A DNA stretch of 64,000 nucleotides, taken from positions 1,302,001 through 1,366,000 of the forward strand of contig NZ_NIDE01000001.1 of the NCBI RefSeq assembly GCF_002197845.1, written 5' to 3'. The DNA is from Fimbriiglobus ruber (GTDB lineage: Bacteria; Planctomycetota; Planctomycetia; Gemmatales; Gemmataceae). The notes below the pieces were generated by a model, which saw only the letters and a program-made list of their open reading frames with translations, was not told the DNA's origin and made no database searches. Below are positions 5,875 to 47,992 of this stretch, one piece after another. The position numbers and the translations under genes are program-made. Within the stretch, counting starts at the first letter, position 1. Every line of letters begins with the position of its first letter.

Positions 5875-7257
5875 TTAGCCGACGTTCACGCCGCCGTTGA
5901 ACGACGGTTCGTAGCCATAGAAGTCGGCCAGCACCTCGACCCCGTTCGGGGTCAGCACCCGGATCCGCGGGCCGCCGCCGGCCCCGGCCCCGAGGAAGAT
6001 GTCCGACTGGTTCCCGACTGGGCCGGTATTCACCGAGACCCCACCGGTGAACGAGGACTCGAACGCAGACAACGTCCGCTCTGGGGTGTTGCTCGTGCCG
6101 GTATACACGTTCACCAGCGGCGGGCCGCCCGGGCCGGTCGCGACGACCAACTGGGCGACCGACGTTCCGTCCAGGTACCCGGCGGCCACGTTCGCCCCGC
6201 CGAGTGGGGCCAGGTTGCTCGCGGTGAACGTGTTCCGGAGCGTCCCGTCGGCCCGGAACACCGCCACGTCCGGGGCCCCACCGGCACCCATGCCGGCGAT
6301 CACGTCGTCGGTCCCAGTTCCGTCCAGGTTACCGGCGGCCACGTTCACCCCGAACCGGGAACTCGGGTCGAACGCGAAGAAGGCGCCAATCGCGCCGGAC
6401 AGCTGGGTCACACCGCCCGGCGTCCCCGGGGTCAGGGCAAACGTCCGCACTTCCGGGCCGCCGCCGGCCCCGGCCCCGACCACGATGTCCAGCCCGGGGC
6501 CGGTGCCCAACCGAGCCAGGGCGACCGATACCCCGTTACGGAGGGTATCGTCGAACGCGAAGAAGTTGGCCAAGACGGCGGACGGGTCGATCTGCCCGTC
6601 CGCCTGCACCTCGTCGAGCTTGGTGCCGTCAATCACAACGACCCGGGGGCCGCCGCCAAACCCGGCAGACACTGCCACGTCCGGCACCCCGTCACCGTTC
6701 ACGTCCCCGACGGCCACGATCGCCCCGCCGCGGAACGACGACTCGAACGCGAAGAAGTTGGCCACCATGGCCTCGGTCGTCCGGTCGTACACCTCGACCC
6801 GTGCGCCCCCGCCGTTCCCGGCCGCCACCGCGTATACCGGCGACAGGTTCGATCCGGTGTAGAAGGTGACCGTCTCGGTCTGGGACGCCGTCCGACCCAG
6901 GGCGTCGGTCACGGTCACGGTGAAAGTGTACGTGCCCGGCTTGGTCGTGATCCCGGCCAGGGCCCCGGTGTTCGGGTCGAGCGTGACCCCCGGGGGTAGA
7001 GCCCCGGCCGACACCGCATAGGCGAGCGGGCCCGTCCCCCCGGTCGCAGCCACCGACTGGGTGTAGGTGGCCCCGGCGATCCCGGTCGGCAGCGAGCCGG
7101 ACCCGCCGAAGGACAGCGGGGCGTCGACGGTGAGCGTGTGCGACTGCGACCCGGTCGCCCCGGTGGCGTCGGTCGCAGTCACGGTGAACGAGTACGCTCC
7201 CGGGGTCGTTGGAGTGCCGATCAGGGCCCCGGTGTTCGGGTCGAGCGTGACCCCCGG
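5875..7257 (-). CDS. C-terminal part of giant secreted repeat protein: last Ig-like repeats plus FG-GAP-like propeller (separated by frameshift)
   Basis: This frame continues the protein encoded from 12260 after a one-base loss near 7257. It carries the last two He_PIG-type Ig-like repeats (FGGSGSLPTGIAGATYTQ...) and then about 320 residues of FG-GAP/VCBS-like repeats. Each FG-GAP unit has FFAFESSFRGG-type and DVNGDGVPDVAV/GAGAGGGPEVR segments; the Asp-rich DVNGDGVPD loop is a typical Ca2+-binding propeller loop. It ends at FNGGVNVG without a sorting signal. The first internal ATG (7182) is not preceded by a convincing ribosome-binding site, so independent expression is unlikely. If the frameshift is a sequencing error, 5875-12260 is one gene of about 2128 residues. 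Confidence 0.8.
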   Translation of the reverse strand, partial: PGVTLDPNTGALIGTPTTPGAYSFTVTATDATGATGSQSHTLTVDAPLSFGGSGSLPTGIAGATYTQSVAATGGTGPLAYAVSAGALPPGVTLDPNTGALAGITTKPGTYTFTVTVTDALGRTASQTETVTFYTGSNLSPVYAVAAGNGGGARVEVYDRTTEAMVANFFAFESSFRGGAIVAVGDVNGDGVPDVAVSAGFGGGPRVVVIDGTKLDEVQADGQIDPSAVLANFFAFDDTLRNGVSVALARLGTGPGLDIVVGAGAGGGPEVRTFALTPGTPGGVTQLSGAIGAFFAFDPSSRFGVNVAAGNLDGTGTDDVIAGMGAGGAPDVAVFRADGTLRNTFTASNLAPLGGANVAAGYLDGTSVAQLVVATGPGGPPLVNVYTGTSNTPERTLSAFESSFTGGVSVNTGPVGNQSDIFLGAGAGGGPRIRVLTPNGVEVLADFYGYEPSFNGGVNVG

Positions 7258-10200
7258 GGGAGAGCCCCGGCCGACACCGCGTAGGCGAGCGGGGCCGTCC
7301 CCCCGGTCGCAGCCACCGACTGGGTGTAGGTGGCCCCGGCGGTCCCGTCCGGAAGAGCCCCGGACCCGCCGAAGGTGATCGGGTTGGCCACCGTCCCGGT
7401 GAAGACCTGGACGGCCGTCCGGTCGTCCGCGTCGGTCGCCGTAACGGTGAAGGAGTACGGCCCGGCCGCCGTCGGGGTGCCGCTGACGACCCCGGTGGTC
7501 GGGTCGAGGGTCAACCCGGCCGGCAGGGTTCCGCTGGTCACCGCGAACGTGTCCGGCCCCCGCCCGCCGGTCGTGGCAATCGTCTGGCTGTACGCCGTCC
7601 CGTCGGTCGCTACCGGCAGGGCGGTGGTGCCGATCGCCAGTGGGTCCGACACCGTACCGGCGTACTTCTGGGTCGCCGTCCGGCCGTCCGCGTCGGTCGC
7701 CGTGACGGTGAAGGAGTACGGCCCGGCCGCCGTCGGGGTGCCGCTGACGACCCCGGTGGTCGGGTTCAGCGTCAGCCCGGCCGGCAGGTCGCCGGCGGTG
7801 ACAGCGAACGTGTCCGGCCCCTGACCGCCGGTCGCGGCGATCGTCTGGGACAACGGCTGGCCGGTGGTGACCACCGGCAGAGCCGCCGGGCCGACGGCGA
7901 GCGGGGCGGTGACCGTCCCGGTGAGCGCCGGGCTGACCGCCGTCCGGCCGGCCGCGTCGGTGGCAGTCACGGTGAACGAGAACGGCCCGTCGGTCGTGGG
8001 AGTGCCGCTGATGACCCCGGTGGTCGGATCGAGGGTCAGCCCGGCCGGCAAGGCCCCGCTGGTCACCGCGAACGTGTCCGGTCCCTGACCGCCGGTCGTG
8101 GCAATCGTCTGCGAATACGGGACCCCGGTGGACGCCGGGGCGACGCTGGTCGTCGTGACGGCGAGCGGGGCGGTCACGGTCCCGGCGAACGTCGGGCTGG
8201 CCGCCGTCCGGCCGACCGAATCGGTTGCCGTCACCTGGAAGCTGTACGGCCCGTTAGTCGTGGGGGTGCCACTGATGACCCCGGTGGTCGGGTCCAGGGT
8301 CAGTCCGGCCGGCAGGGCCCCGCTGGTCACCGCGAACGTGTCCGGACCCTGGCCGCCGGTCGTGGCGATCGCCTGCGAGTACGGGGCCCCGGTGGACACC
8401 GGAGCAATGCTGGTCGTGGTGACCGCCAGCGGCTCGGTCTCGGTCCCGGTGTACGTCGGGCTGACCGCCGTCCGGCCGGCCGAATCGGTCGCCGTGACGG
8501 CGAACGAGAACGGCCCGTTGGTCGTGGGAGTGCCGCTGATGACCCCGGTGGTCGGGTTCAGCGTCAGCCCGGCCGGCAAGGCCCCGCTGGTCACCGCGAA
8601 CGTGTCCGGCCTCTGACCGCCGGTCGTGGCAATCGTCTGCGAATACGGGACCCCGGTGGACACCGGGGCGATGCTGGTCGTGGTGACGGCCAGCGGCTCG
8701 GTCTCGGCCCCGGTGTATGTCGGGCTGACCGCCGTCCGTCCGGCCGAATCGGTCGCCGTGACGGCGAACGAGAACGGCCCGTCGGTCGTGGGGGTGCCGC
8801 TGACGACCCCGGTGGTCGGGTCCAGGGTCAGCCCGGCCGGCAGGGTCCCGCTGGTCACCGCGAACGTGTCCGGCCCCTGGCCACCAGTCGTAGCGATTGT
8901 CTGCGAGTACGGCTGGCCGTCCGACACCGGGGCGATGGTCCTGGTGGTGACGGTCAGCGGGTCGGTCTCGGTCCCGGTGTACGTCGGGCTGGCCGCCGTC
9001 CGGCCGGCCGAATCGGTCGCCGTGACGGCGAACGAGAACGGCCCGTTGGTCGTCGGGGTGCCGCTGATGACCCCGGTGGTCGGGTCCAGGGTCAGCCCGG
9101 CCGGCAGGGTCCCGCTGGTCACCGCGAACGTGTCCGGCCCCTGACCGCCGGTCGTGGCAATCGTCTGCGAGTACGGCTGGCCCGTGGATACCGGGGCGAT
9201 GCTCGTCGTGGTGACGGCCAGTGGCTCGGTCACGGACCCGGTGTACGTCGGGCTGACCGCCGTCCGGTTGTCGGCATCGGTGGCGGTCACCTGGAAGGTG
9301 TACGGCCCGTCGGTCGTGGGGGTGCCGCTGATGACCCCGGTGGTCGGGTCCAGGGTCAGCCCGGCCGGCAGGGCCCCGCTGGTCACCGCGAACGTGTCCG
9401 GCCCCCGACCGCCGGTCGTGGCGATCGCCTGCGAGTACGGGGTCCCGTTGGTCACGGGGGCGATGCTGGTCGTGGTGACCGCCAGCGGGTCGGTCTCGGT
9501 CCCGGTGTACGTCGGGCTGGCCGCCGTCCGGCCGGCCGAATCGGTCGCCGTGACGGCGAACGAGAACGGCCCGTTGGTCGTCGGGGTGCCGCTGATGACC
9601 CCGGTGGTCGGGTCCAGGGTCAGCCCGGCCGGCAGGGCCCCGCTGGTCACCGCGAACGTGTCCGGACCCTGACCGCCGGTCGTGGCAATCGTCTGCGAGT
9701 ACGGCTGGCCCGTGGATACCGGGGCGATGCTCGTCGTGGTGACGGCCAGTGGCTCGGTCACGGACCCGGTGTACGTCGGGCTGACCGCCGTCCGGTTGTC
9801 GGCATCGGTGGCGGTCACCTGGAAGGTGTACGGCCCGTCGGTCGTGGGGGTGCCGCTGATGACCCCGGTGGTCGGGTCCAGGGTCAGCCCGGCCGGCAGG
9901 GCCCCGCTGGTCACCGCGAACGTGTCCGGCCCCCGACCGCCGGTCGTGGCGATCGCCTGGCTGTACGCCTGGCCGTCCGACATCGGGGCGATGCTGGTCG
10001 TGGTGACGGTCAGCGGGTCGGACACGGTGAGCGCGTACGACTGGGAGCCCGCGGCCCCGTTCGCGTCGGTCGCCGTGACCTGGAAGTTGGACGTCTCGTC
10101 GGTCGTCGGGGTGCCGCTGATGACCCCGGTGGTCGGGTCCAGAGTCAACCCGGCCGGCAGGGTCCCGCTGGTCACCGCGAACGTGTACGGCGCGGTCCCG

Positions 10201-35662: not shown

Positions 35663-36418
35663 CTATTCCCCGGTCACGAGCGTCCCGATCGCGTGCCCGG
35701 CGATCGCTCGCTCGATCGCCCGGTCGGCCTTGTAGTTGAACACCAGGATCGGCAGCTTGGCTTCCTGGCACATGTCGAACGCGCTCAGGTCCATCACCTT
35801 GAGCCGGTCTTGAAGCACCTTGTGGTACGTCAGCCGGTCGTACTTCTCGGCGTAAGGATTCTTTTCCGGGTCGGAATTGTAAACGCCGTCGACCCGGGTC
35901 GCCTTCATGAGGACGTCCACCCCGAGTTCGCGGCCGCGGAGGGCGGCGGCGGTGTCGGTGGTCACGAACGGGTTCCCGGTCCCGCCCGCGAGAATGACGA
36001 CCCGCCCGTTCTCCAGGTGGCGGATCGCGCGGCGGCGGATGTACGGCTCGCAGACGGTGTCCATCGGGATGGCGGACATCAGGCGGGTCTGAATGTCCAG
36101 GCTTTCCAGCGTGTCTTGCAGGGCGAGGCCGTTCATGACCGTGGCCAGCATGCCCATCGAATCCGCGGTCGCCTGTTTGATGGTGTTCAACCCGGCCGAG
36201 AACTGGGCACCGCGCAACAAATTCCCGCCACCGACGACGACGGCCAACTGCGTGCCCATCTCGACCACGCGCTTCAGCTGCTCCGCGATCGCGAGCGTCT
36301 CGTCGAGGCTGATGCCGTTCTTCCCGGCGTGGCCGAACGCCTCGCCACTGAGTTTCAGGAGGACGCGCTGGAACGCCGGTTTCGAGGGTGTCTGCACAGA
36401 TGGTACGTTCGTCGGCAC
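35663..36418 (-). CDS. pyrH: UMP kinase
   Basis: Hexameric amino-acid-kinase-fold UMP kinase, converting UMP and ATP to UDP in pyrimidine synthesis. Motifs: [12 protein letters not shown] (P-loop-like N-terminus), [90 protein letters not shown] start at the GTG at 36418 ([10 protein letters not shown]). A TATAAT box at 36459-36464 would place transcription start near 36452, downstream of the alternative ATG at 36457. Upstream lies a large repeat element. Confidence 0.97.
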
Positions 36419-36458
36419 GATGGCCCCCGGGCTGGGTCGGAACGGAAACAGCACCAAG

Positions 36459-36486: not shown

Positions 36487-36540
36487 CCCGGTACCGGTAG
36501 ACCGGCAGGTAAGCTACCGGTGCCCGGGGCCACCGGGACG

Positions 36541-36720
36541 ATTTTAGTGGGGTGACGTCTTGGGGCTCTGTCCCAAACCGGGACGATTTTAATGGGGTGA
36601 CGTCTTGGGGCTCTGCCCCAAACCGGGACGATTTTAATGGGGTGACGTCTTGGGGCTCTGCCCCAAACCGGGACGATTTTAATGGGGTGACGTCTTGGGG
36701 CTCTGCCCCAAACCCCGCCG
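36541..36720. repeat. Tandem 45-bp repeat, four copies
   Basis: A 45-bp unit (GACGATTTTAATGGGGTGACG, then a CTTGGGGCTCTGCCCC segment and AAACCGG) is repeated three to four times with one or two substitutions (for example CTGTCCC in the first copy, CTGCCCC in the others). Each unit contains the small palindrome GGGGCTCTGCCCC. The last copy runs into the 73-bp inverted repeat. It lies between pyrH and the LRR gene, both on the minus strand; translation in one frame gives a 15-residue repeat, but no start signal supports a gene. Confidence 0.85.
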
Positions 36721-37015
36721 GAGGGGTTGGACCCCTCCGGACCTCCTCACTTGCTCCCGACCCTCGGAATGATCCCAGAGCGGATCATTCCGAGGGTCGC
36801 TCGCTGGACCGTTTATCGATCCACGGACTGCTCGTGGTACCACCCGTATTGGCTCGCGATCAGTCGACGTCTTGCCGCCACAATCAACCCAGACCCCTGC
36901 GAGCGATCCGGGGGTCGATCCGCTTTGGGATCGACCCCCGGATCGGGAGCAAGTGAGGAGGTCCGGAGGGGTCCAACCCCTCCGGCGGGGTTTGGGGCAG
37001 AGCCCCAAGACGTCA
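36688..37015. repeat. 328-bp element with perfect 73-bp inverted ends and nested hairpins
   Basis: The arms 36688-36760 and 36943-37015 are exact reverse complements over 73 bases. Inside are two further perfect hairpins: 36759-36774 with 36783-36798 (begins GACCCTCGGAATGATC), and 36905-36921 with 36928-36944 (begins GATCCGGGGGTCGATCC). The remaining core of about 105 bp is unique. There is no transposase. It could be a non-autonomous mobile element, a strong transcriptional stop after the LRR gene, or a structural repeat. It shares the GGGGCTCTGCCCC motif with the adjacent tandem array. Confidence 0.8.
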
Positions 37016-37062
37016 ACCCGCCAGGACGCCCTGGAATCCCCAGCACCCCCCGATCGCCCCGA

Positions 37063-38313
37063 TCACGGAACGGCCACGCGATCCTGGCTGCCGACATTTT
37101 CCTGGTAGGTCAGGTTTCCACTCGTCTCCAGAACGGTCTGAAAATCCCGCCGGTGGTACCAGAGCGAGTCCACGCCTTTTTGCGAGAGGCGGTTCACCGA
37201 GACGTCGAGGTACGTGAGACGTGACATCAACGACGACCCGGCGAGAACGAACGCCCCGGCGTCCGTGATTTGATTTTGCCGGACGGCCAACCGCTTCACC
37301 CCAACCAGGTGCGGGGACTCGGCCACCGCCCGCACGCCGGCGTCGCCCAGGTAGTTCCCGGACAGATTCAGTCCTTTCGCCCGGGCGAGGCTCGGCGAGG
37401 CGACGAGGGCGATTGCCCCGGCCGGGCCGATCGCGCTATTGCGCAGGTCCAGATTGGGGTTATGTTCGAGCATTCTTCGGAGCAGCGACGACCCGGCGAG
37501 TTCGGCCGCCCCGGCGTCGCCGATGTGGTTCGCGTAGACCCGGAACGTGTACAACCGGGTGAGATAGCGACTGGAAACGACCGCCTTGACTCCCGCGTCT
37601 CCCACGTCGTTCCCGGACACGTCGAGAACCCGGAGGCCGCCCAGGTGAGGCGACTCCGCCAGCGCACGAACGCCCTCGGCACTGATCTGCCCGTTGTCGG
37701 TCAGATACAGCGCGCGGAGCCGCGAAAAGCCGGTCGCCCGCGCGAGCAGGCGGACGCCGCCGTCGCAGAGGCCGTTGAAACTCAGGTCGAGGGTTTCCAC
37801 CCGGGTCAAGTACGGCGAGCGGGCGAGGACGTTCACCCCGCCGTTGCCGAGATCGTTGCCGCAAAGGTCGAGTTCGCGAACGCTCGCGAGGAAAGGGCAT
37901 TGTGCCAGCCGCCCGATGTGCCGTGCGGCGTCGAGTATCCGCACGCGGCGGACCGGCGCCAGGCGAAAGAGTTCGTCGCCCCGCGCCAGAAACGTACCCG
38001 CGTCGACCGACACGGCGTCGGCCACGCCGCGGCGGAACTCGACCCCGACGACCATTTCACCGAGGTGGGCGGACCACGCCGCTTGATGCTCCTGAAGGAG
38101 TTCGAGTTCGCGCGTTTTCAGTGACCCGCGCATCGGGTGATCGTCCGACGTCCGGGCGAGCGCGCACTGGACGCGGATCAATTCGCCGCGGGCGCGGTCG
38201 GCCGGGTCGTCGGATTCGTCGAGGAAGTCGGCGTAGATCAGCCGCGGCCCGTCGTCGTGATAGTGAGATAAGACGGGCCCCAAGAACGCCTGTTCCTCGG
38301 CGGGCGTCGGCAT
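37063..38313 (-). CDS. Leucine-rich-repeat protein with planctomycete repeat-companion domain (TIGR02996)
   Basis: A 416-residue cytoplasmic-looking protein. The N-terminus EEQAFLGPVLSHYHDDGPRLIYADFLDESDDPADRARGELIRVQCAL is the planctomycete repeat-companion domain found in front of repeat arrays. It is followed by about eight ribonuclease-inhibitor-type LRRs (VRELDLCGNDLGNGGVNVLARSP, LRVLDVSGNDVGDAGVKAV, KGLNLSGNYLGDAGVRAV). The likely role is protein-protein interaction; the partner is unknown. GGAGG 8 nt before the ATG supports the start. Isolated between repeat elements. Confidence 0.9.
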   Translation of the reverse strand: MPTPAEEQAFLGPVLSHYHDDGPRLIYADFLDESDDPADRARGELIRVQCALARTSDDHPMRGSLKTRELELLQEHQAAWSAHLGEMVVGVEFRRGVADAVSVDAGTFLARGDELFRLAPVRRVRILDAARHIGRLAQCPFLASVRELDLCGNDLGNGGVNVLARSPYLTRVETLDLSFNGLCDGGVRLLARATGFSRLRALYLTDNGQISAEGVRALAESPHLGGLRVLDVSGNDVGDAGVKAVVSSRYLTRLYTFRVYANHIGDAGAAELAGSSLLRRMLEHNPNLDLRNSAIGPAGAIALVASPSLARAKGLNLSGNYLGDAGVRAVAESPHLVGVKRLAVRQNQITDAGAFVLAGSSLMSRLTYLDVSVNRLSQKGVDSLWYHRRDFQTVLETSGNLTYQENVGSQDRVAVP

Positions 38314-39287: not shown

Positions 39288-40286
39288 TTACCTGGGCTTC
39301 CGCACGATGCGGGGTTTCGCGACCTGGGGCGTCGGGGTGGTTTCTTCCGCGGGCGTTCCCATCACCACGTTGGCCCCACTCACGCTCGCGGCACGGTAGG
39401 CGGTCTCCATCGCGTCGAGAAAACGCTCGTCGCCGCGCCAGAACGGAATCGCCCCGAGCCGCTTGGGGAGAGCCGCGGTGACGGACGGCGAGTTGATCTC
39501 GGCGAGCAAGTCGGTCGGTAACTCGCCCACACTCCAGAATTGCCGCGGGTCGGCCGGCGCGGCCGTTTCATTCGCTGTCGGTGCCACACTTGAGGGCGAC
39601 ACCGCATTCGCGGGCAGCGGTTCACTCGCGGCTGCCGCCCGCGCCGGAGCCTTCGGCTTCCTGGCCACCTTGGGCGCCTCAGGGGGAGGCGGCGGGGTAC
39701 TGGCACCAAGTTTGGCGAACAGCGCCTCGCGGTCCAGACCGCGGAGGCGGAAGAGGAGGAACGGGTCGCGGTCGAACCTCTCGCCCAGGAGGTAGTAGAC
39801 GGCCGCGATGTGCTTGCACGGGTTCGAGTAGTCCGGGCAGGAGCAGGACGTTTTGAGGTCGTTCCGCTTCGCGGGGAAGAGCGACACGCCCGCATCTGCC
39901 GCCAGTTGTTCGACCTCACTCGGTAGTTCGCCGGCCAGCAGCTTCGCCGCGAATTTCGCTTGCACGGACAGTGCCTTCACGACCTTCGCCCAATCGGCGT
40001 CGGTCAGTTTCGCCACCTCAATGCTCACCTTATAGGGCTGCGGCGCCGAGCCTTGAACTTTGGCGGCCACGTGGCCGGGCGTGACGTCGATCGACAGCAC
40101 CTGGCCGCCGCGGGCGTAGCTCCGCCCGCGCTGCAGGCGGCCGCCGACGTCGAAGCTTTCGATCACGGCGATCCAGCGCTTCGCCCACCACGATTCGCCG
40201 AAACTCCCCCTCTTCGATTGGGATTTGATCCCGCCGACGGCTTTGCGCGGCGTCGATTTCGGGTAACGGCTATATTCCCACCACAT
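39288..40286 (-). CDS. SWIM zinc-finger protein, partner of SNF2 helicase
   Basis: A 332-residue protein. The N-terminal region (MWWEYSRYPKSTPRKAVGGIKSQSKRGSFGESWWAKRW) is followed by a SWIM zinc finger (KTSCSCPDYSNPCKHIAAVYYLLGERFDRDPFLLFRLRG, C-x-C...C-x-H, about 145-185) and a disordered Ala/Pro tail. In many bacteria this protein is encoded beside an SNF2-family ATPase, and here it follows that gene after 3 bp, implying translational coupling. SWIM fingers bind DNA or protein; the pair probably forms one chromatin/DNA-remodelling or repair machine. Different from the SWIM protein of the retron locus. Confidence 0.9.
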   Translation of the reverse strand: MWWEYSRYPKSTPRKAVGGIKSQSKRGSFGESWWAKRWIAVIESFDVGGRLQRGRSYARGGQVLSIDVTPGHVAAKVQGSAPQPYKVSIEVAKLTDADWAKVVKALSVQAKFAAKLLAGELPSEVEQLAADAGVSLFPAKRNDLKTSCSCPDYSNPCKHIAAVYYLLGERFDRDPFLLFRLRGLDREALFAKLGASTPPPPPEAPKVARKPKAPARAAAASEPLPANAVSPSSVAPTANETAAPADPRQFWSVGELPTDLLAEINSPSVTAALPKRLGAIPFWRGDERFLDAMETAYRAASVSGANVVMGTPAEETTPTPQVAKPRIVRKPR

Positions 40287-40289
40287 GCG

Positions 40290-43200
40290 TCACTCCTCCA
40301 CCGCGTCCGCCCGCAGGGCGAGCAGGTCTTTGAGTTCGGTGTTCGACATCTCCGTCAGCCACCCTTCCCCGGTCCCGACGACCCGCCCCGCGACTTCCTT
40401 CTTCCGCTCGATCATTTCGTCGATCTTCTCTTCCAGAGTACCCACGCAAACGAATTTATGCACCTGCACGTTCCGCGTCTGGCCGATCCGGAAGGCCCGG
40501 TCCGTGGCCTGATTCTCCACGGCCGGGTTCCACCAGCGGTCGAAATGGAAGACGTGGTTCGCGGCCGTCAATGTCACCCCGGTCCCGCCGGCCTTCAGGG
40601 AGATCAGGAAGACCCGCGGCGCGTCCGCGGCGGTCGTGTCCTGAAACCGGGCGACCATCCGCTCGCGGTTTTTCTGCGGCACCCCGCCGTGCAGGAATAG
40701 CACTTCCTTGCCGAATGTTTCTTGCAGGTGCTTGCGGATGATGTCGCCCATCTCGGTGAACTGCGTGAAGATCAGCGCCCGGTCTCCGACCTGAAGCACT
40801 TCGTCGATCATTTCCGTGAGGCGGGCGAGTTTGCCGGAGCGGTCCGGGATCGCGGAGTTGTCGCCCAGGAACTGGGCCGGGTGGTTGCACACCTGTTTCA
40901 ACTTGGAGAGCGCGCCGAGAATCAGCCCCTTGCGGCGAATCCCATCCTCGTCCTTGAGTGACTTATCGAGTTCCCGGACGACGGCCTGGTACAGCGTGGC
41001 TTGTTCCTTGGTGAGCGTGCAAAAGACGTTGGCCTCGAACTTGTCCGGCAGGTCGGCGATGATTGACTTGTCGGTCTTCAGCCGTCGCAGCAGGAACGGC
41101 CCGGTCAAGTCCTTGAGCCGCCGTGTGGCGTCTTCGTCGCGGTGCATCTGGATCGGCACGAGAAAATTCCGGCGGAACGACTCGCGTGACCCGAGGAAGC
41201 CCGGGTTCAGGTACTGGCCGATCGACCACAGGTCGCCGACGTGGTTCTCGACCGGGGTGCCGGTCAGGGCGACGCGGAAATCGGCTTTGAGTGCGCGGGC
41301 GGCCTGCGACGTTTTCGCGTCCGGGTTCTTGATATTCTGCGCCTCATCCAGAATGACGCCCGCCCACGGGATGGCTTGCAGCGCGGCCGCGTCCCGGTGC
41401 AGGAGTGAAAAGCTGGAGACCACGAGGCCGAATTGCTTGACCTGGGCCGCGAGGGTCTTCTCCCCTTTCGTGCGCTTCTGCCCGTGGTGGATGAGGACCG
41501 ACAGGGTCGGCGTGAACCGCTCCGCTTCCTTGCGCCAGTGGCCGACGACGGACGTGGGACAGACGAGGAGGACCGGCCGCGTTTCGCCGTCCTCGCGGGC
41601 TTGTTGGATCGCGGCGAGCGTCTGGACGGACTTCCCGAGGCCCATGTCGTCCGCCAGGCACGCCCCGAGGCCGACCCGCCGCAGGAACGACAGCCACGAG
41701 TACCCCCGCACTTGGTACGGCCGCAGGGTGCCGTGGAAGTCGCGCGGCGGGGTGAGTTCCGCGAACGTCGTCGTGCCCCGGAGTTGGTCGAGGAACACCT
41801 TCAACCCGCCCGTCGTTTTCACCCCGCGCACGGCCAACCCGCCCGGCCCGGTCTCGGCGCCGAGGCTCATCTTCAGCAGGTCGCGGACGGTGCCGGTGGT
41901 TTGCGGGTTTTTGGTCCAGAAATCGAGGGCGGTGCGGATCTCGTCGGCGTTCACTTGAACCCACCGGCCGCGGACGTTGACCAGCGGCGACTTCAACCGG
42001 GCGAGCGCTTCGAGTTCGGCCAGCGACAGTTCGGTGTCCCCGATCGCGACTTTCCAGTCGAACTTGATGACCTCGTCGAGCGACATGACGCCGTTGGAGG
42101 CCGAGAATTTCTTCGCGGTTTTCGCGGCCGCGGTGACGGCGAGCCTGTTTTTGGTGCCGGTCCGCGCCCACCACGCCGGGAGGAGGACGCCGAAGCCGGC
42201 CTGTTCGAGGACGTAGGCCGTCTCGCTCAGGAAGCGGTGGGCGCCGCCCGCGTCGGTGGTGAACTCCGTCGGCGCGGCCGTGTTCAAACTCGTCTCGACT
42301 TCCGGGCAGAGCTTCGCGGCCTGACCGAGAGCGGCGAACAAAAACTCGCGGGACGGGAGCGGGACACTTCTGGCGACGGCCTTGTGGGGGAACCAGGCCT
42401 CGTCCAGGGAAACGAGTAAGCTCGGGTCATCGAAGGCTTGCAGCAGGTAGCGGACGGTCCAGGTGCCTTTCGTCGTGGCCTCGACGGGAGTCGCATCCGG
42501 CGGTTCTTCCAGACGAAAACAGAGCCGGTAACTCGCCGCGTCCGCGACGACGATCGGCCGCTGCCAGTCGTCGAGCGCCCGTCTCAACTCGCCGGCCTCG
42601 GCCGGGCTGACTTGCATCGCCCCGTCGGGCGCGTGCAGCGCGTAGAGCCACTGGTCGTGGACACTGGCAAAGGTCTTGCGGACGGTCGTCGTCATCCGCG
42701 ACGAGCGGACCAGACCGTCGACGGCCAGTTCGAGGAAATCGTTCAAGGCGGCGGTCGGTGACGCGCCGCCCGCCGAGTCTGTTGCCGTCGCCCGGCAGGC
42801 GGCGGGCATGGCGGCGGCGAGCCTCTGGAACCGCGGCCGCTCCGGGCCGCCGACGACGGGCCGCCAACAGGCCCGCGTCTGCGTCCCGACCGTTTCGAGC
42901 CCCGGAAGGAATTGCTCCCTCGCGACGAGGCCGGCGGCGTACTGTGCGGCCGTGACCCAGTATTTCAGCGTCGGGCCGATCAGTACGCCCGGCTGGAGCG
43001 TGTCGCGATCGACGCAGGCTTCGAGTAGTTCGAGGGCCGAAGCGGCTTCGAGTACGAGAACCGGAACGGCCCACGGGCTCATCTCGATGACCGCGTCCGG
43101 GTCCGGCGGCTCGGCGATCAATGGCAACGACGCGATCGGCCGCCCGGCTGTACTCGGCAGCCAAACCGCGGCTGTTTCTTCGGGCGCCTGGAACGAGGAA

Positions 43201-43358
43201 ATGCTCTCGGCGACCGTCGTTCGGATCGTCTCGGCCGGCACCGAAAAAGGGTGCGGGCGGGCCGCCTGTCGCGACTTGCGGCCCGCGCGGGCGGGCTCCG
43301 TGGTCTCACCCCAAGCCAGGAATTGCTTGTCTCTCAAGAGGAGTTGCAGCGCGATCAT
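40290..43358 (-). CDS. SNF2-family DEAD/DEAH-box helicase
   Basis: About 1022 residues. A long N-terminal family-specific region is followed by a SWI2/SNF2 motor: motif I DDMGLGKSVQTLAAI (about residue 570), Ia VLLVCPTSVVGHW, II DEAQ in ILDEAQNIKNPDA (about 672), III ALTGTPVENHVGDLWSI, then helicase-C motifs FTQFTEMGDIIRKHL, FLISLKAGGTGVTLTAANHV and DRAFRIGQTRNVQVHKFV. It translocates on double-stranded DNA with ATP. The ATG at 43358 has AGGA 7 nt upstream; an upstream TTG (43394) lacks such a site. Forms an operon with the SWIM gene. Confidence 0.93.
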   Translation of the reverse strand: MIALQLLLRDKQFLAWGETTEPARAGRKSRQAARPHPFSVPAETIRTTVAESISSFQAPEETAAVWLPSTAGRPIASLPLIAEPPDPDAVIEMSPWAVPVLVLEAASALELLEACVDRDTLQPGVLIGPTLKYWVTAAQYAAGLVAREQFLPGLETVGTQTRACWRPVVGGPERPRFQRLAAAMPAACRATATDSAGGASPTAALNDFLELAVDGLVRSSRMTTTVRKTFASVHDQWLYALHAPDGAMQVSPAEAGELRRALDDWQRPIVVADAASYRLCFRLEEPPDATPVEATTKGTWTVRYLLQAFDDPSLLVSLDEAWFPHKAVARSVPLPSREFLFAALGQAAKLCPEVETSLNTAAPTEFTTDAGGAHRFLSETAYVLEQAGFGVLLPAWWARTGTKNRLAVTAAAKTAKKFSASNGVMSLDEVIKFDWKVAIGDTELSLAELEALARLKSPLVNVRGRWVQVNADEIRTALDFWTKNPQTTGTVRDLLKMSLGAETGPGGLAVRGVKTTGGLKVFLDQLRGTTTFAELTPPRDFHGTLRPYQVRGYSWLSFLRRVGLGACLADDMGLGKSVQTLAAIQQAREDGETRPVLLVCPTSVVGHWRKEAERFTPTLSVLIHHGQKRTKGEKTLAAQVKQFGLVVSSFSLLHRDAAALQAIPWAGVILDEAQNIKNPDAKTSQAARALKADFRVALTGTPVENHVGDLWSIGQYLNPGFLGSRESFRRNFLVPIQMHRDEDATRRLKDLTGPFLLRRLKTDKSIIADLPDKFEANVFCTLTKEQATLYQAVVRELDKSLKDEDGIRRKGLILGALSKLKQVCNHPAQFLGDNSAIPDRSGKLARLTEMIDEVLQVGDRALIFTQFTEMGDIIRKHLQETFGKEVLFLHGGVPQKNRERMVARFQDTTAADAPRVFLISLKAGGTGVTLTAANHVFHFDRWWNPAVENQATDRAFRIGQTRNVQVHKFVCVGTLEEKIDEMIERKKEVAGRVVGTGEGWLTEMSNTELKDLLALRADAVEE

Positions 43359-43515
43359 AACGCGATCCTGGAATACCCGAATATCGTCTATCAAAACGCG
43401 GGGTTAAGCGATCGAGGCATCGGGGCACATACTTTGACATAAAGAATTGTCGACCCTGCGAACAGCAAGAGTTGTTCGATCTGGCCGGTGGGCCGGTTAT
43501 TCGCGGCGGTCGGTC

Positions 43516-44723: not shown

Positions 44724-46019
44724 TCAGTCCGGGATCGCGTTCAGGTCCGCGAGCAGCTTTCGCCCCGTCTCGGGATCGGTCATGTAAATATAGGCCGCAT
44801 ACCCCAGAAGCCGGGCGACCGACTCGCCCTCGGGCAGCGGTTTACCTTTCCCCAAGTTGTGGACCGCGGCCCGCATCTCGCGCTTCAATTTCCGCGACAC
44901 ACGTGGTTGACTGGTGCCGTTGACGACGAGCCCGGTCACCGTCTGTCGGCCGCCGCTCCGGGCGACCCGCGTCTTGTCCGCGTGGACCCGGAACCCCTCG
45001 CCTTCCACGACCCGTTTCACGCACCCCAGGAGTGCCCCGAGTTTCGGCGGACCGGCGTGGGCGGCCGGCAGGCTGAACGTCATGTCGTCCGCGTATCGGG
45101 TATACCGCCACCCGAGTTTGGCCGCGAGGCCGGTGAGCCGGCGGTCGAGCCGGAGGCAGAGGGCGTTCGTCAGGGCCGGACTGGTCGGGGCGCCTTGCGG
45201 TAGGCACCGTGGGCCGAGGCTGACGTAATACGTCGTCCCTTCCAGGTCCACGACTTCGCGGGGCGCCTCCGTGCAAATCAGCGCGAGGAGGGTGGCGATC
45301 GATTCGTTGTACCCGGCCCGGCGGAATACACCTCTCACCCGCCGCCAGGTCACGGTCGGAAAGAACTCTTTCACGTCCATCTTGAGGATCATTTTCGCGG
45401 ACGCGTGGGCGGCGGCGTTGGTGGCGATCGAACGCCCGGCCAGAAAGCCGTGGGCGGCCCCGTGGACCGGGAGTCGCTCGACGATGTTGTGCAGAATCCA
45501 GCGCTGCGCCGCTTTCAACCGGGGCAGCGGCGCCCAGATCGGTCGTTCCGAACCGTCCCGCTTGGGAATGGCGAACCGCACGTAATGAATGCTCGTGGCC
45601 GCATCGCGGTGGTAGCAGAGGCCGCGGAGTTGGGCGAGTGTAATCCCGAGAGCTTCGGCCAGTTGTTCCGGGGTATCGAGGGGCGGCAGTTCGTTCTCGG
45701 CCGCCCGCTCGGGACCGTTCGGCGTGTCCCACTTGTCCGGCTTGGCCCCGTCCGTCCAGAACACGCCTTCGCCGAGGTGAACGACGTGGGCGGCCTTGTA
45801 CGCCGCCCACGCTTCCCGGCGGAGCTTCTTCGTCTCGATCGCTTCTTGCTTCAGCGCCTTCTTGTACTGATCCTTTTCCCGATCCGACATCCCCTCCACG
45901 TCTCGACGTTCAACGAGAAACCCTCGCTCCCGAAGTTGCTCGGTCACGTAAGCCTGGGTGCCGCCGGCCTGGGTGATCTGACGCCAGAGGGTGAGCGGGT
46001 CGGGTCGGGTGCTGTTCAT
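44724..46019 (-). CDS. Retron-type reverse transcriptase (type XIII-like, myxobacterial-like)
   Basis: A 431-residue RT. An N-terminal extension of ~135 residues (helical, KKLRREAWAAYKAAHVVHLG) precedes the polymerase. It has the retron features NAAAH (201-205), motif A with KMDVKEFFP (catalytic Asp 215), LPQGAPTSPALTN (273-285), catalytic YADD (309-312) and VTG at 361-363, the motif retron RTs use for msr RNA recognition. The N-terminal extension and IPKRDGSERPIWAPLPRLKAAQRWIL closely recall myxobacterial (Mx162-type) retron RTs, from memory. The expected product is branched RNA-DNA (msDNA) primed from a 2'-OH of msr RNA. It is the last gene of the retron operon, 116 bp after the SWIM gene. 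The ATG has no good Shine-Dalgarno. Confidence 0.92.
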   Translation of the reverse strand: MNSTRPDPLTLWRQITQAGGTQAYVTEQLRERGFLVERRDVEGMSDREKDQYKKALKQEAIETKKLRREAWAAYKAAHVVHLGEGVFWTDGAKPDKWDTPNGPERAAENELPPLDTPEQLAEALGITLAQLRGLCYHRDAATSIHYVRFAIPKRDGSERPIWAPLPRLKAAQRWILHNIVERLPVHGAAHGFLAGRSIATNAAAHASAKMILKMDVKEFFPTVTWRRVRGVFRRAGYNESIATLLALICTEAPREVVDLEGTTYYVSLGPRCLPQGAPTSPALTNALCLRLDRRLTGLAAKLGWRYTRYADDMTFSLPAAHAGPPKLGALLGCVKRVVEGEGFRVHADKTRVARSGGRQTVTGLVVNGTSQPRVSRKLKREMRAAVHNLGKGKPLPEGESVARLLGYAAYIYMTDPETGRKLLADLNAIPD

Positions 46020-46135
46020 GGGAGGGTACTGTGAAACTCACTGCCTCAATGGTGTGGTGCCTCAGGTCTTTAACGCTGGTCTTCACTCTTCATTTTTGTG
46101 CTTTTTTGTGCCTTTTTGTGGCCATTCTTCCGGCT

Positions 46136-47992
46136 TCATTCCGCGACGGCGTCGAGGTAGCCCCTGGACGTCAGGTCCGCGAGTCGGGCGAAGTACGCCG
46201 TCCGGGCGGCCGCCTCGGTGTTGAACCGTAGCGCCTGGACCCGCGCGGGCTGACCCGCCCTGCCCCACCGGACTTTCACCTTCTGCCGCTCCAACGACAC
46301 CTGGGCGACCGTCTCCTCGTTCCCCACCCGGCGGCTGAACGCCCGCGTCTCGAACGTTACCGCGTCGTCGGTTTTGGCCCGTTCCGCTTCCCGCGCGGCG
46401 AACGCCAGACGGAGGGCGATCAGGTGGACGCACGGCCCGGCCTTGAGCCCCTGCTTCCGGAACGCGGTGCAGGTACAAACGGCCTTCCGCACCTGCCCCT
46501 CGTCGGCCAGTACGAGTTGGGGGCGGTAATCGCGCTTGTCTTCCGTTACCGACACCTGTCCGGTCACTTCTAACCCCACGCCCGCGACGCGGGTTTCCGA
46601 GACGACTTTGACAGCCCCGCGGCGGGTGAACAGGTCGTAAGCCACCTTCTCGTGCTGGTTGCGGTACTGGAGGCGGGTCAAGTCGAGCGGCTCGCCGACG
46701 ACGGGGCGGAGCCGGTAAACGCCGGTCGCGATGTCGAACATGAGTTGGCCGTGCTGGCAGCCGAGTTGGAGCGTTTCGAGCAGGGCCGACCCCTTCAACC
46801 CGGTCCCGGCGGCGAGCGCCTTGGTGTCGGCCGACCAGACGCCGGCGAGGTAGTCGATCACCTTCTTGAGCGCCGCGGGGGTTTCCGTCTTCCGCGGCAG
46901 GAGCAGGTCGAACCCGAGGGCTTGCGACCAGTTTGATGACGTGAAACCCGTCAGTCCGAGGGTCAGCGTCATGTCGCCGGCGCGGAACACCCAGAAGCTC
47001 GGCAACCCGCTCCCGAGTAGATAAACGTCGACCGATTCGACGAACGGCAGGAGCCGGCGGATGGTCATTAGCCGCCGCCGGCCCCAAACCCTGACGACGC
47101 GGGCGGCCGTTCCACGGAAGACGTCTGCGGTTGTCGGGATAACAGTCTCCCACGGTTCGAGGACGATCCGCGGCCGGTCGCCGGGGATCAACTCGAACCG
47201 CAGCCCGCGGCGCTTGCCCTTGGTGTCCGCGTGCATTCGCAGGTGCCGGAGCAGGTTGTACACGTCGACCGGGGCGAGGCGGACGTGGTCGAACGGGAGC
47301 GTCGCGGCCGACTGAACCTGCAGGAACCCGCGGAGCCAGGAGTCGGGCACACGGATTTGCTTCTCGATCAACTCCGGCCGCGTCTCGGTGGCGACGGATA
47401 ATCCCTCCGAACCGACCGCGAGCCGTGTCTCGCGGTACCCGCGCATCTGTTGCACGCCGTCGAAAAGAGCCCGGCTGAAGTCGATGTTGGTGGTCCCGAA
47501 CGCGGCATCGCCCGCGTGGTCAAAAGCGTCCTGACGGAAGGCGAGACAGGCGTACGTACTCTCGTCCTTACCGAACACCTCGAACATCACCTGATCCGGG
47601 TGAACACTGACAACGGGGTCGAGGATGCAGAACAAGAGTGGGTCGTTCCGCGCCAGCCAGGAGAAATACGCCTGCTGGGCCTGCCAGATGCTTTGCCCGG
47701 CCGTCTCGCGCTTGAGCCGGAGGTACGCGAGGTACGCGGTTCGGTCCTTCGGAACATAACGGTAATCGCTGCCGACGACGGCGTACAGCGCGGACAGGGC
47801 TTCCCGGAAACGGAGCGGGTCTTTGACGCGCGCGGCAAAGCGGACCGGCGGGCGGTCGACGTTGCCGTAGAGTTCGACGCGGGCGGCCGCCCCGGCCGTT
47901 TCGACCCGGCTGGCCCCGGCGTAAGCCAGGTGCGCAGCCGTGGCGGCCGGCTGGTTGTCGGTCGGGGGATCGAGGAGTTCGCCCGTTGACAT
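46136..47992 (-). CDS. Winged-helix/SWIM/WGR protein of the retron operon (WHSWIM-like)
   Basis: A 618-residue protein. A long N-terminal alpha/beta region is followed by a helical winged-helix-like part (KKVIDYLAGVWSADTKALAAGTGLKGSALLETLQLG...GVYRLRPV, about 375-440). A SWIM zinc finger comes next (VCTCTAFRKQGLKAGPCVHLIALRLAF, C-x-C and C-x-H, about 500-525). The C-terminus is a WGR-type domain (VKVRWGRAGQPARVQALRFNTEAAARTAYFARLADLTSRGY, about 560-612). WGR and SWIM modules are nucleic-acid binding; WGR is known from PARPs. Retron type XIII operons are described with a WHSWIM protein next to an ARM-repeat protein and the RT. AGGGA lies 8 nt before the ATG; the gap from the HEAT gene is 24 bp. 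Confidence 0.88.
   Translation of the reverse strand: MSTGELLDPPTDNQPAATAAHLAYAGASRVETAGAAARVELYGNVDRPPVRFAARVKDPLRFREALSALYAVVGSDYRYVPKDRTAYLAYLRLKRETAGQSIWQAQQAYFSWLARNDPLLFCILDPVVSVHPDQVMFEVFGKDESTYACLAFRQDAFDHAGDAAFGTTNIDFSRALFDGVQQMRGYRETRLAVGSEGLSVATETRPELIEKQIRVPDSWLRGFLQVQSAATLPFDHVRLAPVDVYNLLRHLRMHADTKGKRRGLRFELIPGDRPRIVLEPWETVIPTTADVFRGTAARVVRVWGRRRLMTIRRLLPFVESVDVYLLGSGLPSFWVFRAGDMTLTLGLTGFTSSNWSQALGFDLLLPRKTETPAALKKVIDYLAGVWSADTKALAAGTGLKGSALLETLQLGCQHGQLMFDIATGVYRLRPVVGEPLDLTRLQYRNQHEKVAYDLFTRRGAVKVVSETRVAGVGLEVTGQVSVTEDKRDYRPQLVLADEGQVRKAVCTCTAFRKQGLKAGPCVHLIALRLAFAAREAERAKTDDAVTFETRAFSRRVGNEETVAQVSLERQKVKVRWGRAGQPARVQALRFNTEAAARTAYFARLADLTSRGYLDAVAE

Follow-up and report, generated by a model that had tools for sequence, protein, structure and literature searches.

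A dispersed family of non-coding mobile repeats with an internal palindrome in Fimbriiglobus ruber, its stems probably maintained through folded single-stranded DNA

We analyzed a window of 64,000 nucleotides from the genome of Fimbriiglobus ruber (12.36 Mb, 20 contigs), in which a composite of tandem and inverted repeats lies between pyrH and a gene for an LRR protein. In our judgment, this locus probably belongs to a family of mobile repeats that are non-coding and non-autonomous and whose stems are upkept by self-correction of folded single-stranded DNA. What is new is the family itself, which has an unusual palindrome inside the unit and offers a good example of stem upkeep directed by the fold; mobile repeats of this general kind are already known.

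Structure of the locus

The initial annotation had described a 45-bp tandem array, exact 73-bp inverted arms and two perfect internal hairpins at this locus, and all three were borne out. The array has a period of 45 with 98% matches, the arms are the longest exact inverted match, and both internal hairpins consist of 18-bp stems with 6-nt loops. A looser match of the arms extends to 124 bp at 88%. Beyond that description, we found that each arm of the window copy contains two further hairpins (H1 and H2), that the array unit includes H1, the outer hairpin of the arm, and that the whole structure is multicopy. The features are listed below in window coordinates.

36514..36693, + strand: F1 flank, lengthened here by the tandem array; defined by text common to the F1 side of other copies, with an approximate start placed by eye
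36532..36714, + strand: 45-bp tandem array of 4.1 copies, the unit being the end of F1 plus H1 (repeat search)
36688..36760, + strand: left arm, 73 bp, an exact complement of the right arm
36695..36711 (C1:1338695-1338711), + strand: left H1
36718..36740, + strand: left H2
36758..36799, + strand: H3A, perfect 18-bp stem with a 6-nt loop
36800..36903, + strand: variable middle, in some other copies inverted relative to the flanks
36904..36945, + strand: H3B, perfect 18-bp stem with a 6-nt loop
36943..37015, + strand: right arm, 73 bp, an exact complement of the left arm
36963..36985, + strand: right H2
36992..37008 (C1:1338992-1339008), + strand: right H1
37010..37050, + strand: remnant of the F2 flank with its outer end missing; text common to other copies, by eye, with an approximate boundary
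35663-36457, - strand: amino-acid-kinase-family protein (PF00696), assigned as pyrH on the basis of its family and the gene order
37063-38313, - strand: LRR protein gene

As RNA, the stretch at this locus is predicted to fold at -340.7 kcal/mol, compared to -205.8 +/- 6.9 kcal/mol for 100 shuffles (z -19.7); the DNA fold of 36688-37015 gave -164.8, compared to -65.4 +/- 4.1 for shuffles (z -24.4). Assembly collapse is an unlikely source of the structure, given that dozens of copies with different flanks show this architecture. Elsewhere in the window, positions 6901-10191 hold a long tandem array with a period of ~263 bp and ~10 copies in its main part.

A dispersed family with a common architecture

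Counting copies in the genome, a check that the initial annotation had called for, gave at least 38 dispersed places, 34 of them with two arms, 3 with one arm and 1 a fragment. The 38 places account for 91 blast matches, and each place was read individually (best 40 of 69 candidates). A covariance model of the half element, built from 40 of the 68 listed halves, yielded 73 matches in the genome, comprising 71 halves and 2 weak overlapping matches at one duplicated locus, when the best 150 of 11,848 candidates were scored. Since the searches scored these numbers of candidates, the family count may be low. Our alignment comprises 30 of the 38 places; outside it are L062 (a second copy of the L061 locus), L064, L067 and L068 (long or divergent), L065, L069 and L070 (one half each) and L071 (the fragment). 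L061 (C17) and L062 (C3) have long flanks in common, either through segmental duplication or because a single locus was assembled twice.

The unit is about 430 bp long and runs in the order F1 - arm (H1, H2) - H3A - variable middle - H3B - arm' - F2. The outer part of each half element consists of H1 (TTGGGGC-TCK-GCCCCAA; stem 7 bp, loop 3), ACCCCG and H2 (CCGGAGGGG-N5-CCCCTCCGG or a variant). After H2 come a short spacer, GCTCCCG, H3 and CGCTCGC, with H3 having a variable stem and the apex ATCC-CARAGC-GGAT. The two halves face each other across the variable middle, which measures several hundred nt at most, in L064 and L067. Loops and hairpin feet are conserved across copies, and H3 classes are mixed in 23 of 32 copies when judged by the loop and in 27 of 32 by a reading of the stems. 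The repeat appears to be non-coding, as two interior frames tested, one each from L064 and L067, gave no Pfam match. The middles of these two copies, with open frames lacking a Pfam match, are possibly captured DNA; the middle of L068 contains a second palindrome, by eye unrelated, with GGCACGTT...AACGTGCC text.

F1 and F2 were both recognized in 20 of 32 copies. Flank matches to F1 and F2 fell at known copies only (37/37), and the flanks are therefore part of the unit and not an older target repeat. An older host repeat as their source was rejected, since the genome contained no site with F1 and F2 joined. Free modules were likewise rejected: by position, all 71 exact H1 matches and all 59 H3 pattern matches were known places, and H1 occurred alone at only one.

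As far as searched, the repeat is confined to this genome, apparently as a lineage-restricted family. A DNA search found it in none of 40 genomes of relatives, the exact H1-H2 pattern was present in 0 of 391 other genomes of the phylum, and the covariance model, run with stricter filters on the best 40 candidates per genome, matched in 0 of 94 other genomes of the family. With completeness of 86 and 87% in the other two genomes of the genus, absence of the repeat from them is uncertain. No copy was present in plasmid and phage collections or, by pattern search, in the IMG/VR viral collection, and the literature matches listed included nothing on this repeat. Wider occurrence was also sought by the H3 pattern in species genomes and was rejected; the 4 stretches returned, compared to a rough chance expectation of two or three, included none with an H3 stem by eye.

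Target duplications and the mode of insertion

A non-autonomous mobile element was among the possibilities raised by the initial annotation, and it is supported by the dispersal of the repeat over 38 places together with target-site duplications. In 12 independent copies, a motif served to locate the F2 end, and the sequence just outside F2 was compared with that outside F1. Exact target duplications of 8-12 bp were present in 7 of these 12 testable copies, starting between -1 and +2 nt relative to the F2 end, and we therefore conclude that the unit inserts. The mean longest flank match over the 12 copies was 8.17, which 0 of 20,000 re-pairings equaled, while 8 of 132 mismatched flank pairings reached 8-9 bp. 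A clear duplication was absent in the other 5 copies, where the longest common stretch was 4-7 bp (6 bp in L042; the other four resembled unrelated pairs).

Among the 7 copies whose duplications are exact, sequence divergence is 16% in F2 and 26% in the middle. Had the duplications aged like F2, the chance that their 71 bp would be free of mismatches is about 4e-6, a result inflated by the selection of exact duplications. Varied F2 and middle sequences beside exact duplications suggest that much of the variety between copies arose before or during insertion.

In being short, non-coding, multicopy and dispersed, the repeat resembles bacterial MITEs such as BrickBuilt of Porphyromonas gingivalis (PMC4596501); BrickBuilt also has target duplications in some copies and a tandem repeat. 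The tandem repeat forms the body of BrickBuilt (PMC4596501), whereas here it is found in one copy only, at the edge. The inverted repeats of our repeat are internal, in contrast to the terminal ones of MITEs: none was found at the duplication boundary in eight copies, in which the similarity of the ends did not exceed that of shuffles. Of the other defining properties of MITEs, target duplication is present. No autonomous relative sharing the ends emerged from a search with the F2-end pattern, for which 12 of 13 matches lay at known copies and the remaining one had 3 mismatches. No transposase gene and no partner element were found.

Non-LTR retroposons (SINEs) have one constant and one variable end, target duplications and no terminal inverted repeats. 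This repeat may share these traits. In the eight copies, F2-side ends agree apart from point changes, while F1-side ends differ in sequence and in length, with 48-69 nt between the end and H1. The repeat may be a SINE-like retroposon, in which an RNA is reverse-transcribed into a nicked target, F2 being the constant 3' end and the 5' ends variable. Such an element would involve a non-coding RNA with a giant four-way hairpin, intergenic nicks, an enzyme acting in trans and 8-12-bp duplications. That all 7 duplications begin at the F2 end, that F2 differs by 16% between copies while the duplications are exact, that inverted ends are absent and that the genome contains 16 reverse-transcriptase matches (15 over the cut-off) all favor this reading. 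However, part of the asymmetry between the ends is built in, because the tested copies were chosen by a recognizable F2 end, and some left ends may, by eye, be full length with internal deletions. Moreover, unlike SINEs, the repeat has no tail, known transcript or identified reverse-transcriptase partner, and a search at the H1 and H3 places found no link between the reverse-transcriptase genes and the element. We keep the retroposon reading on account of the traces that such an element would leave (duplicated targets, a 3' side that is constant, a 5' side that varies, and ends that are not inverted repeats) but regard both its general form and these details as distinctly unlikely. If true, strand-switching copying on a folded template would explain varied copies with exact duplications. 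As a separate observation, one of the reverse-transcriptase matches lies in the window itself: positions 44724-47992 (minus strand) hold a reverse transcriptase (PADLOC RT_XIII, E 6.7e-166) beside a SWIM protein (SWIM_XIII, E 1.4e-194), which together make up a retron type XIII defence system. An SNF2-type helicase at 40290-43394 (minus strand), with DpdE and ZorD as its top PADLOC matches, adjoins a SWIM zinc-finger protein at 39288-40286.

The reading that we favor is a mobile unit consisting of F1, the palindromic core and F2, which has inserted with an 8-12 bp target duplication (7 of 12 testable copies), presumably through a mobilizing enzyme acting in trans. Target duplication without inverted ends makes the identity of the moving enzyme an answerable question. 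Among candidate relationships, the repeat resembles REP/BIME and CGTC-tagged repeats (PMC3733652) in having palindromic units that face each other. Further likenesses to CGTC-tagged REPs are that H1 starts with T-T/A-A pairs and that CGTC stands before the core in 28 of 64 arm ends; however, the H1 stem of 7 bp and loop of 3 fall outside the reported 8-9 and 4-5 (PMC3733652). Unlike REP/BIME, H1 is found alone at only the one place, and the unit is ~430 bp long with target duplications. In contrast to RAYT-associated REPs, copies here do not flank a Y1 transposase gene: none of the three Y1 genes in the genome lies at a listed H1 or H3 place, and the two Y1 loci that were read hold palindromes other than those of the repeat. 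At L146, a Y1 transposase gene is ringed by several copies of a different palindromic repeat, much like RAYT with REPs.

Stem pairing follows the folded strand

One strand of the core is predicted to fold into a four-way junction made up of the long arm stem, H3A, H3B and the closed middle. Laid over the 30 aligned copies, this fold left 97.4% of cells paired, and 37 of 105 pairs had changed on both sides. The covariation score was 0.211, compared to 0.073 for shuffled alignments and at most 0.048 when the fold was slid; one covariation measure gave a weak result, the number of further pair types being only slightly raised (70 vs 64.5, with 20 of 500 shuffles as high). H3 varies between copies while staying paired (1003 Watson-Crick, 1 G-T, 5 A-C and 7 other cells), and the outer arms gave 1438 Watson-Crick, 9 G-T, 10 A-C and 9 other cells. 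Pairing is poor in the spacer that separates H2 from H3 (233, 12, 24 and 13 cells, respectively).

Active homogenisation of the arms, which the initial annotation had offered as one reading of their exactness, gained support from a comparison in 32 copies, as the two arms of a single copy match each other in H1 and H2 much better than the arms of different copies do. H1 was identical between arms in 28 of 32 copies, compared to 42.5% expected between copies, and H2 in 20 of 32, compared to 5.2%. The spacer was identical in 7 of 32 copies, compared to 7.8% between copies, and 312 of 10,000 permutations matched this identity. H3A and H3B were identical within none of the 32 copies and were less alike within a copy than H3s of different copies (0.580 vs 0.646; 9,984 of 10,000 permutations gave a value at least as high). 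If ordinary conversion between inverted repeats were at work, H3A and H3B should come to resemble each other. Each is instead self-complementary without resembling the other, and the correction therefore follows the folded strand.

Paired changes might also reflect selection on a four-way-junction RNA if the element were a transcribed, structured RNA gene family. The strong covariation, the conservation of loops and hairpin feet and the very stable RNA fold are each consistent with such a family. Selection on RNA would favor G-U over A-C pairs, but G-T cells were no commoner than A-C cells. Pairing that tracks the four-way fold without a G-U preference suggests that the paired changes result from correction of folded single-stranded DNA by template switching rather than from RNA selection, an argument weakened by the orientation of the alignment rows by the middle, which leaves uncertain the strand that an RNA would use. 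In addition, the orientation of the middle varies, and two full copies (L048 and L058) matched no Rfam family at gathering score. The stretch at the window locus gave five Rfam matches up to E 1, all below gathering score (best E 0.015), and a consensus scan, which may not suit this phylum, found no sigma-70-like promoter. We consider an RNA gene family an unlikely explanation.

Under correction of folded DNA, the explanation that we prefer, the single strand would be repeatedly corrected against itself, such that stems stay paired while their letters change. As the DNA is replicated or transposed, this could come about through template switching or by repair of hairpins that have extruded. 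The ~70 half elements in one genome make it possible to tell paired changes that respect the fold, between the two arms or within a single H3, from those that do not, and so bear on whether compensatory changes, commonly regarded as proof of functional RNA, can stem from DNA-level correction alone.

Genomic context does not point to a terminator

A strong terminator isolating pyrH had also been proposed in the initial annotation, and this proposal was not supported. Our scan returned one terminator-like site, compared to 0.6 expected, and that site is on the plus strand inside the array while pyrH is on the minus strand; no intrinsic terminator, which would combine a GC stem with a downstream T-run, was found on the strand of the gene. 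Predicted frames overlap 5 of the 33 copies examined across the family. Where a gene was called on both sides (n=30, from codon-position GC only), the neighbors were codirectional in 17 cases, divergent in 10 and convergent in 3. A very stable hairpin separates pyrH from the LRR gene, each read on the minus strand, and might be a regulatory structure that selection has preserved next to pyrH, for example a terminator or a site for a nucleoid protein. Yet the terminator scan stayed at chance level, only 3 of 30 copies lie between convergent genes, and copies adjoin many different loci, making this reading very unlikely.

Inverted middles, extended arms and the 45-bp array

Template switching between inverted repeats has been described as homogenizing arms and inverting the spacer (PMC8604942; PMC8794818). 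Our repeat shares with this correction of imperfect palindromes the homogenisation of arms, inversion of the spacer and double changes without wobble intermediates; whereas the process is known as a single-site mutation process, here we infer it across dozens of copies of one repeat. Of 29 copies whose middle could be read, 8 have it turned against the orientation given by the flanks; among the 20 copies with both F1 and F2 recognized, this is true of 5. Mismatch-free pairing outward from the core extends for 41 bp in L063, which carries F2-type sequence on both sides, for 22 bp in L036 and for 6 bp in the window copy. Judging from these copies, the correction process may also turn the middle round and sometimes copy a flank across sides.

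Judged by two cases, the 45-bp array seems to have arisen later, by duplication of the edge where F1 meets H1. Its unit, the end of F1 plus H1, breaks off within ~10 nt after H1, and a 319-bp tandem duplication in L049 also ends shortly after H1. Breaks at the hairpin foot in both duplications, though two cases are few, are as stalled and misaligned synthesis would give, and the array may have been added in this manner.
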